In this document: positions 6,687 through 9,600 of the stretch, piece by piece | Numbering within the stretch: the first letter of the stretch is position 1 | How the letters are laid out: each line of letters opens with the position of its first letter | NCBI RefSeq assembly: GCF_029633865.1 | Contig: NC_079224.1 | Span: 23,116,395-23,180,394, forward strand | Length of the DNA stretch: 64,000 nucleotides | Source: Lampris incognitus | Taxonomy: Eukaryota > Chordata > Actinopteri > Lampriformes > Lampridae | Direction: 5' to 3' | The notes under the pieces: model-generated | Told to the model about the DNA's origin: nothing | Database searches by the model: none | The model's input: only the letters and a program-made list of their open reading frames with translations | Translations under genes and position numbers: made by a program

Positions 6687-9600
6687 TCAAATCAGGTCAG
6701 CCACATTCATAGGCATCTCCTCCACAGTTGTATTGTAAAATGTCTCAATGTCCCGAAGAATTCTCTTGTCTTCCTCAGTGACAAAGTTGATAGCAACACC
6801 TTTTCTGCCAAATCGGCCACCACGGCCAATTCTGGGATAAAAGAATAAAAATAAATAAGCAAATAGAAGCAAGTAACTTCAATAAAAATATTCCATAGTA
6901 CTGATGTGAAATTTTGGGTGGAACTACTTTAAGTCTTACTTTACCTATGAATGTAATTTTCTCGGTTTGTAGGGAGGTCATAGTTTATGACCAGGGAAAC
7001 CTGCTGCACATCAATTCCACGAGCCTGAAGGGAGACACACACAAAAAACCCCAAAAACAATTTAGTCGACTCCAAAAGCAGACATATGATTACAATCCAG
7101 TATCACCTGAGAATAAGTAACAGATTCCTACATTTGGAGAAAACCCATTGTTCCTAACCGTTTTAACTGCTCAGTCATTTATGGGACTGGTGCAAAAAAA
7201 ATAAAATAAAAATCCAGGATGAATACATGGTTCTTAAGAGGTTAGATGCACTTTCAGCAAATAGCTTTGTTGTGATGTTCATTCTGTTTTATCTGTCCCA
7301 ATACGAACCAGAAGGTCAGTTGTAATCAACACTCTACTGGAGCCAGATCTGAACTCCCTCATGATCACGTCACGCTCCTTTTGCTCCATATCTCCATGCT
7401 ATGCAGGGGGGGCACAAAACGTTAACTGTAGCAACAAACTCATCTTTACAAAATCAAGGCAAAAAACACAGCACCTTTTATTTGCAAAGGCAAAGGGAAG
7501 AGCAGATTGTACCAGAGCGGAGACTGTGAAGTCCCTAGCATGCATCTTTTCAGTCAGCCAGTCAACTTTTCTCCTGGTGTTCAGGAAGATGACAGCCTGG
7601 GTGATGGTCAGAGTTTCGTACAGGTCACATAATGTGTCTAGTTTCCACTCCTGGAGAAAGCGAACAAGCAATTATCACGTGCAGTGAATCATTCAATTGG
7701 CAAAAAATAACAAGAGTAATGAACCATCCGTTATAAGTGTTGCATAGAATCTTGAGACAAAGAGCATTGGACATTAAGAAAGCGGTCCCCCCAAGCCTCA
7801 CTTTCAATTCTGTGTCTTTAGTCTCCTTCTTTGGTGTGCCCATGCTTACACTGCCACAAGAGTTAAACCATTTAGGCTCGACTCACATAGTTTCAGCAGG
7901 GTGCTTGAAAAAGAAGGGGGACTTCTGGCCTTCACACCAGTGAGGCTGGCCATTCAAAATGCACAAGAAAATAAATGAATAAATAAATGCATGCACAGAA
8001 CTACCCACCTCTCGTTCAACATTAATGTAGAACTGCTTAATACCCTCCAGGGTGAGCTCTTCCTTCTTCACTAAAATGCGGATAGGCTCTCGCATGAACT
8101 TTTTGGTCACCTCCAATACATCAGCTGGCATTGTGGCAGAGAGCAGGACCACCTGAGATAAAGGCACATGATTTTATATGGAATATAAACAAAATTGAAT
8201 TTTTTTTTCTTCCCCCAAAGTCGACAGATCAATAAGAACATCAAAAGTTAGGCCATAGCTGTGGCACTGGGCTTTGAGACAGAGGTCAAGGAACATTAAG
8301 AAAGAGGTTCGACCACGTCTCATTTGCAGCACACTGCACCATGATCTCCTTCTGCGCAATACTCTGCTAGCATTATTGCATGGAACAGAGAAACGTGGAC
8401 CACACAATTTTAGCAGAGTTCTTTTAATGCAGAAGGGTGTCTGAAAGTAAATCTTGATTCAGAGTGAAAACTGTAACCCAAAGGAGTTGAATCAAGTGCA
8501 ACTGGACTTGGTATATATCCGTTTAGACGTTTCGCCTCTCATCCAAGAGGCTTCCTCAGTTGGTGCCTTTCTGACTAGACCAACCTAGTCTGACTGGCTG
8601 GTGATGAGACTCAGAATTTATCCTCTTTGGAGTCATTGTCAGAGCTATAGATGTCCATGGCTCTGACAACGACTCCAAAGAGGATAAATTCTAAGTCTCA
8701 TCACCAGCCAGTCAGACTAGCTTGGTCTAGTCAGAAAAGCACCAACTGAGGAAGCCTCTTGGATGAGAGGCGAAACGTCTTCACGGATATATACCAAGTC
8801 CAGTTGCACTTGATTCAGCTCCTTTGGATAACCATGACCTGGATGAATGAACATTCACAGACATGAAAACTGTAACCTTTTCCAAATAGAGAACATGAGA
8901 TGCTTACTTGAATGTTTGTGCTTAACTTCTGGAAGATTTCATAGATTTGATCTTTGAACCCTCGGCTTAGCATCTCGTCAGCTTCATCCAGAACAAACAT
9001 CTTGATCCATTTTGGCGCTATATAGAATGAACACAAACCATTGGAACTCACATTTTCACAAGCAAAATATAGGATGGCAGGGAAGATGTGTTTTTCTTTA
9101 GCCGAGTAAGATACAATGAAATGATCTTATACTTACATAAATACCTCCTGTTAAGCATGTCAAACACACGGCCAGGGGTGCCCACCACTATATGAGGGGC
9201 CTCAGCCTGGAGCTTCTGCATTTCACTACGGACATTTGTTCCACCAATACAGGCATGGCACGTTGCCCCCATGTAGTCACCCAGAGCCAGAATTACTTTC
9301 TGAATCTAATGGAAGGGAGGAAAGAAAAAGAAAATGTTTTGTAGTTATGTACTTCAGGGGGTTAAAACAGTAGAAAAGGCATAGGGGTGTAGAATTTACT
9401 TCATGAGTCAGACATTTTCTGAGCAAGACCTTACGTTAAATGACAGAACCCATTGCTCATTTTATGAAAATGTATGACCCATTTGGTTTTGCATCAGTCA
9501 AGAAAGAAAAAACTAGTTTCAGGACCTACAGACATCCTGTAACCTGCTTCCGAGTGATCAGTCAAGATGTAATTCTCTCCATTCTTTATGGGTCAGTCCC

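Follow-up and report, generated by a model that had tools for sequence, protein, structure and literature searches.

The palindromic repeats found in the window (the whole 64,000-nucleotide stretch of Lampris incognitus DNA that was analysed) and elsewhere in the genome are almost certainly copies of the 3′ end of a Penelope-like element (PLE), mostly without an open reading frame (ORF) and occasionally bearing one. The statement as a whole, that these PLE 3′ ends would be laid down by a mechanism pairing one start at a tail-less outer end (site A) with one start at the end of an unpaired tail (site B), is put forward as probable. As a unit it is what a known kind of retrotransposon ordinarily produces; the interest lies in its regular A/B ends.

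When the 385-bp copy was searched against the window by BLASTN, the five insertions sharing one sequence were recovered where a first-pass annotation of this DNA had placed them, with inverted arms wherever a second arm exists. The 8479-8863 copy aligned to its own reverse complement with 94 % identity over 349 bp (E=5e-156, BLASTN). The copies and their parts, in which the arm is named pLTR for reasons given below, are as follows.

2748..2954, + strand: short palindromic pLTR copy; A arm 2748-2784 (-), AT-rich repeat centre, B arm and tail 2868-2954 (+); 16-bp direct repeat CATCTCAGTAGCTACA
8478..8863, + strand: palindromic pLTR copy; A arm 8478-8664 (-), B arm 8641-8863 (+); 14-bp direct repeat TGAAAACTGTAACC
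8828..8863, + strand: unpaired tail of the 8478 copy, site A to site B; ends ...ATTCACAGACA
31478..31929, - strand: palindromic pLTR copy in reverse orientation; B arm and tail 31479-31758 (-), tail at left, A arm 31765-31929 (+); 13-bp direct repeat AGGTGCTTCATAC
32440..32518, + strand: solo B copy, 5′-truncated, with the last 40 nt of the pLTR and the tail; 11-bp direct repeat CATACAACATA
39273..39670, + strand: left part of a palindromic pLTR copy; A arm 39273-39410; hammerhead-like motif at 39323 (-)
42040..42182, + strand: right part of the same copy; B arm and tail, aligned 42041-42180; hammerhead-like motif at 42061 (+)
39273..42182: outer left and right ends of that copy; 10-bp direct repeat TATCTTCATC
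39671..42039, - strand: nested hAT transposon, no part of the PLE copy; own 8-bp repeat GTCTAGTC

The aligned arms of the 2749 copy measure 37 bp (A) and 87 bp (B) around the AT-rich repeat, the tail of the 8478 copy is 2 nt shorter than that of the reference copy, and the left part at 39273..39670 runs on after its A arm into longer inner pLTR sequence that carries a palindrome of its own. The target repeats first reported for the 2749, 8479 and 39276 copies (16, 14 and 10 bp) were confirmed, but those of the 31478 and 32442 copies measured 13 and 11 bp instead of 12 and 10 bp. The segment 39276-42182 had been described as one insertion; the PLE copy there is real, but 39671-42039 is the separate hAT transposon, with frames at 39787-40572 and 40608-41717 and zinc-finger and dimerisation domains (hAT dimerisation E=2.2e-8). 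A further insert splits the pLTR in locus L041, and another, hAT-like by eye, is present in L035.

The genome searched comprises 1.48 Gb in 537 contigs. A 34-nt arm core, CTGAGGAAGCCTCTTGGATGAGAGGCGAAACGTC, was matched 8100 times in the genome when ≤2 mismatches were allowed, the reversed control giving 0, so the copies are not due to chance, and an arm/tail pattern had 7054 matches at ≤3 mismatches against 0 in the control. In four loci (L010, L022, L034 and L058) the pLTR starts straight after the stop codon of a GIY-YIG-like endonuclease frame, and the arm in L022 extends inward to about 425 nt. The frame in L010 matched the GIY-YIG profile PF01541 with E=7.8e-4 and 20.1 bits, slightly below the Pfam cut-off of 22.6. 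Among 150 scored of 22476 candidates, 150 matches to the GIY-YIG-like frame were obtained with 88-100 % identity, and at least two endonuclease-frame matches adjoin pLTR matches (C6:50.08 Mb and C1:32.19 Mb). A related copy on C25 has an 801-aa open frame with an endonuclease-region match at its end that is 93 % identical to L010; the upstream 496 aa of this frame matched the generic reverse transcriptase profile RVT_1 (E=1.8e-10), and a PDB sequence search with the reverse transcriptase half returned no match at E≤0.01. Counted from the start in L079, 801 codons finish where the endonuclease match finishes. A PLE has this domain order, with the reverse transcriptase before GIY-YIG, and the arm is therefore read as the pLTR and the unpaired end as the tail. 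The Penelope connection suggested in the first-pass annotation is thus borne out by the position of the pLTR directly behind the GIY-YIG-like frame and by the RVT_1 match in the 801-aa frame. An inverted pLTR is present in L010 and L028, and in the fold-back of L028 the ORF end is contained in both arms. The end of the PLE coding frame occurs in 5 of 50 copies sampled from C1 (L010, L022, L028, L034 and L058), the other 45 having no ORF. Viral contigs yielded 0 matches for an arm/tail 27-mer. The palindrome family was absent from the titles listed in literature searches, whose scope excludes subscription papers and Repbase.

To place the ends on a common scale, 78 loci and the window copies were mapped to L022, a real copy, in which the final G of CCTTTGG was numbered 0 and the tail ends at +38; site A lies near +1 and site B near +38. 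Palindromes were paired automatically where a '-' HSP was followed by an adjacent '+' HSP less than 700 bp away and both outer ends lay beyond -20. Before counting, L014, L029 and L031 were dropped as repeats of L013, L028 and L030, as was L001, which is the window copy itself. All 42 palindromes paired in this way are A/B, with 0 A/A and 0 B/B, and bear the tail on exactly one arm. Their A ends range from -9 to +8, with +1 commonest after correction for the target repeat, and their B ends from +22 to +38, the tail of L037 being aligned to +22 only. Of the 42 pairs, the C1 sample contributed 18 and the window 3, and the other 21 were fetched for similarity to the window A/B copy; since this last group makes up half of the set (21/42), the 18 pairs from C1 give the fairer picture. 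Outside the pairing filter fell L008 (three HSPs, A/B by eye), L075 (an interrupted A arm), L010, L015, L033 and L077 (one outer end inside -20), L040 and L042 (a short inner fold-back) and the window copy at 39276 (a nested insert, A/B by eye).

The C1 sample consists of 50 distinct copies out of 53 loci, picked by exact motif match, which misses arms not long enough to contain the motif and makes two-armed palindromes up to 2x likelier to be picked; classes were assigned by eye and checked by a search for inverted partner pieces against shuffles. It contains 18 A/B palindromes, 20 solo B copies, 3 solo A copies (L041, L055 and L057) and 3 B copies with a short inner fold-back (L040, L042 and L048), the rest being B/other (L010, L033), A/other (L015), A with an unassigned second end (L035) and other (L009, L058). 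Solo copies are thus about as frequent as palindromes (20 solo B, 18 A/B). The first-pass statement that all copies end with the tail needs amending, as the palindromes carry it on one arm only and 3 of the 50 C1 copies are solo copies that end at A with no tail. In these solo A copies no inverted partner piece above shuffles was found on the inner side, and target repeats are weak or absent, that of L041 being imperfect by eye.

If the ends were independent, 18 A/B palindromes out of 18 in the C1 sample would have p about 7e-12 (solo-B frequency entered as 0.86; 20/23 observed). A view that does not depend on the pairing gave 7 head-to-head motif pairs within 1 kb among the first 100 exact C1 motif hits listed, and 0 head-to-head tail pairs within 1 kb among the first 100 exact C1 tail hits listed. 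A query of the genome with 150 nt of the arm gave 40 tailed arms from the 40 of 118 candidates that were scored, and 3 of these had a nearby partner; remoter partners seem to be unscored, and no counts were taken from it. Outer ends that deviate from this pattern occur in L010 (-43) and L033 (-42), both tailed copies, and in L077 (-35), L009 (-30) and L015 (-104).

Of the 42 paired palindromes, 39 are flanked by target repeats of at least 10 bp (with 1-2 mismatches allowed), two of them within simple repeats, and in 34 of the 42 the repeats are 12-15 bp long, so the fixed outer ends and target duplications first noted in the window hold in many other copies of the genome. Solo copies have inner ends that vary, and part of them have target repeats. 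The targets show no strong motif, A+T being about 62 % in repeats and flanks alike (38 sites). A MITE or fold-back DNA transposon was considered and rejected, since the ends differ by the 38-nt tail, the repeat lengths vary and the copies do not share a centre, and the first-pass preference for target-primed reverse transcription over a cut-and-paste MITE is upheld. The same annotation had named, as one outcome that would undo its reading, a palindrome that is only two independent head-to-head long repeats of an ordinary Penelope element. In favour of two independent head-to-head insertions of ordinary pLTR copies, solo copies do exist, but a single target repeat surrounds the whole palindrome in 39 of 42 cases, all 42 are A/B, and the arms mostly meet within a few bases and leave no space for central target repeats, so that this origin has a negligible probability.

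The centres bear on whether the palindromes are inherited as such. Pairs of inner ends (junctions) were distinct in 39 of 42 palindromes, three pairs occurring twice each; the inner ends differ from copy to copy, hence the centre is as a rule not inherited and the palindrome arises at insertion. A discrete non-autonomous fold-back class whose palindromic master gene is mobilised in trans, as the first-pass annotation had proposed, would fit the common outer ends, the target duplications and the 45 of 50 C1 copies without PLE coding sequence. Copied palindromic masters would, however, give one common junction, which is not seen, solo copies are about as common as palindromes, and 5 of 50 C1 copies carry the end of the PLE frame. 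The inherited class is accordingly very improbable, and the fold-back is a frequent landing form of a PLE and not a separate retroelement class.

Junctions were near-symmetric, with inner ends within 25 nt of each other, in 26 of 42 palindromes and asymmetric by >25 nt in 16. The B arm is longer by >25 nt in 10 (for example L052, A -52/B -216) and the A arm in 6, by up to 224 nt (extremes L025, A -236/B -12, and L047, A -215/B -6). Asymmetric junctions have overlaps of a few bases or short filler, and the centre of L049 (2823-2968) consists of 146 nt of other sequence. The near-symmetric junctions, and the variants common to both arms described below, would be expected if cDNA were primed at B only, its 3′ end then folding at a local inverted repeat (AGAGC...GCTCT in the pLTR), copying itself and stopping at A because the enzyme sits on the tail. 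The short inner fold-backs of L040, L042 and L048 point the same way, and the palindromes of rotifer PLEs have been interpreted as self-priming, there on an antisense template (PMC3846280, in the part of the text available). Against such a snap-back stand the 6 of 42 palindromes, and L033, in which the tail-less arm extends >25 nt past the reach of the tailed arm: a tail-less arm beyond the tailed arm cannot be its copy, so that these copies at least need a second reverse transcription from A, unless the tailed arm later lost part of its length. The existence of solo A copies (3 of 50 in the C1 sample) likewise speaks for two reverse transcriptions and not for the copying of one arm. Self-copying that is unhindered would moreover pass through the tail and give B/B palindromes, of which 0/42 were seen, and the arms of L028 and L066 carry different subfamily alleles. 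Snap-back as the general origin is consequently considered unlikely.

The relation between the two arms was also followed by subfamily variants in the 35 of 42 pairs that could be aligned, of which 25 have at least 5 of 11 diagnostic columns in common. Concordance of the arms was 0.84 against 0.626 when permuted (sd 0.038, maximum 0.782, 20000 permutations), and at a three-allele site (CCAAAGAGG/CCTAGAGG/CCAAGAGG) the arms agree by eye in 22 of 25 pairs. Discordance at this site is due to clearly different subfamily alleles in L028 and L066 and could be a later change in L023. The shared-source signal is strong in near-symmetric copies; in the 16 asymmetric copies it reaches p=0.055 for the diagnostic columns (3 usable pairs) and p=0.09 for all columns (10 pairs). 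Another origin for the A end would be the 5′ end of an antisense PLE transcript, with reverse transcription starting at B on the sense RNA, jumping to the antisense RNA and running off its end. The sharp A end and the asymmetric junctions would both be accounted for, and antisense transcription has been proposed for rotifer PLEs (PMC3846280, available part). By eye, however, the antisense strand of the tail itself shows no TATA-like sequence upstream of A; a TATA-like stretch, GGATATATACC, does occur inside the pLTR, but downstream of A in the antisense reading. The variants common to both arms would moreover require both RNAs to come from one locus, and this origin is decidedly improbable.

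Two-start, two-strand target-primed reverse transcription on the same or a sister RNA is the best-supported mechanism and, as far as sequence can indicate, a fairly probable one. A PLE enzyme (reverse transcriptase plus GIY-YIG endonuclease) supplied by autonomous copies would bind the pLTR/tail of the PLE RNA, and both target strands would be broken with a stagger of about 12-15 nt, a figure taken from the repeats, to give the target duplications. The first target 3′ end would then prime a cDNA at site B (the tail end, +38) and, in palindromic copies, the other target 3′ end would prime a second cDNA at A (about +1), its template being the same RNA or an RNA of the same source locus. This priming step is proposed because the ends are fixed, each paired palindrome has one A and one B end, and subfamily variants are common to the arms. 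The two minus-sense cDNAs would be joined at their 3′ ends into a head-to-head palindrome with a fresh centre every time, presumably by microhomology, local inverted repeats or short filler, and with the diversity observed at the junctions. The B reaction alone would yield an ordinary 5′-truncated solo copy.

More tentatively, and with a little less than even confidence, it is suggested that PLEs generally integrate by such paired-start reverse transcription, in which adjacent sites on one RNA or RNA dimer would each be used once, one per cut strand, and of which the inverted pLTR would be the record. One A end plus one B end would then be the normal, not the absolute, outcome. Several observations speak against the two-start mechanism: the near-symmetric junctions (26/42) are also predicted by cDNA snap-back, the 16 asymmetric copies give only a weak signal of a shared source, outer ends other than A exist, L040, L042 and L048 resemble snap-back products, and the repeats of solo A copies are weak or absent. 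Since the deviant ends and short inner fold-backs could come from snap-back or from other starts, snap-back may coexist with the main route.

Features of the paired-start reading can be compared with two known PLE systems. In vitro, the protein of the anole PLE cuts and extends both target strands, and reverse transcription starts internally, at two adjacent sites with the tail between them; no difference in start site was found between the top and the bottom strand, and later steps of the scenario await validation according to the available part of that study (PMC11167929). This Poseidon element of Anolis carolinensis (PAc) has the two tail-separated starts and the use of both strands that are proposed here, and a hammerhead motif comparable to the candidate described below, but one A end and one B end per palindrome, as in the present genomic copies, is not described for it (PMC11167929, available part). 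As the anole start sites are alike on both strands, strict A/B pairing is not predicted from them. The two-start mechanism would extend this published in-vitro work (PMC11167929). Pen families of the rotifer Adineta vaga have head-to-head inverted pLTRs, a 31-bp tail that is optional on one of them, palindromes at the junction, 8-10 bp target repeats and 5′ truncation, for which self-priming on an antisense template was proposed (PMC3846280, available part). Their overall anatomy, with an inverted pLTR, a one-sided tail, short duplications and 5′ truncation, is that of the present units, and inverted pLTRs and 3′ extensions are given as peculiarities of PLEs in the accessible portion of a curation guide (PMC8969392). 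Compared with what the available rotifer text reports (PMC3846280), 45 of 50 C1 copies here have no ORF, there are thousands of tail ends (7054 at ≤3 mismatches), target repeats are mostly 12-15 bp (34/42) instead of 8-10 bp, and tailed and tail-less ends are usually fixed within a few bases. The two-end signature can be tested in any PLE-rich genome, where it separates two-strand priming, self-priming and inherited palindromes, and it supplies a reason for the tail and the inverted pseudo-LTR.

Each arm of the 8478 copy carries a candidate minimal-hammerhead-like motif, and the 31478 copy carries it as well. Across the genome the motif is present in 8100 places at ≤2 mismatches.

8526..8559, - strand: minimal-hammerhead-like motif, left arm of the 8478 copy, exact match
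8746..8779, + strand: minimal-hammerhead-like motif, right arm of the 8478 copy, exact match
31562, - strand, 1 mismatch, and 31845, + strand: hammerhead-like motif in the 31478 copy

The minimal PLE hammerhead consensus has the letters CUGA-N-GA and GAAAC-GUC, and PLE ribozymes are said, reportedly by Cervera and De la Pena in 2014, to act as dimers. The layout of the candidate, CUGA-N-GA, a short stem II and GAAAC-GUC with no space for helix III as read from its letters, is that of minimal PLE hammerhead ribozymes, and stem II forms in the predicted fold. Searches with the Rfam hammerhead models gave no match in the whole window at E≤1 nor in 8650-8870 at E≤10, and the ribozyme therefore stays at the level of a motif. 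The RNA fold of one pLTR end was no more stable than shuffles (z=-0.44). Two tail-less arms, in L033 (1255-1560) and L010 (1392-1539), end at -42 and -43, respectively, instead of at A, about 5 nt beyond the predicted hammerhead cut, placed by eye between -48 and -47. Minimal PLE hammerheads without helix III are described in reviews (PMC6155905, PMC7229834, available parts). Animal retrozymes (PMC7229834, available part) are similarly small, non-coding, possibly moved by PLEs and equipped with a ribozyme-like motif, but they consist of small tandem repeats with full type I ribozymes and circular RNA, whereas the present units are inverted with a minimal motif. A retrozyme was rejected as a candidate because the 42 pairs are head-to-head inverted, not tandem direct, and the motif has no space for helix III.

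Rfam searches of the window also placed two SNORA81 and two SNORD2 copies at 7735-7918, 8257-8437, 9552-9627 and 10225-10296 (-), and with these snoRNA copies around it the 8479 copy probably lies in an intron of a snoRNA host gene, presumably eIF4A2, the usual host of SNORA81/SNORD2. A histone 3′ stem-loop-like match at 38717-38762 (-) scored 28.9 bits, short of the gathering score of 34, and a Type-P1 twister ribozyme-like match at 35070-35150 (-) scored 46.8 bits (E=3.1e-7), short of 67.2. Two UnaL2-type LINE 3′ stem-loops were found, at 35801-35854 (+) just under the gathering score and at 28609-28663 (-) above it.
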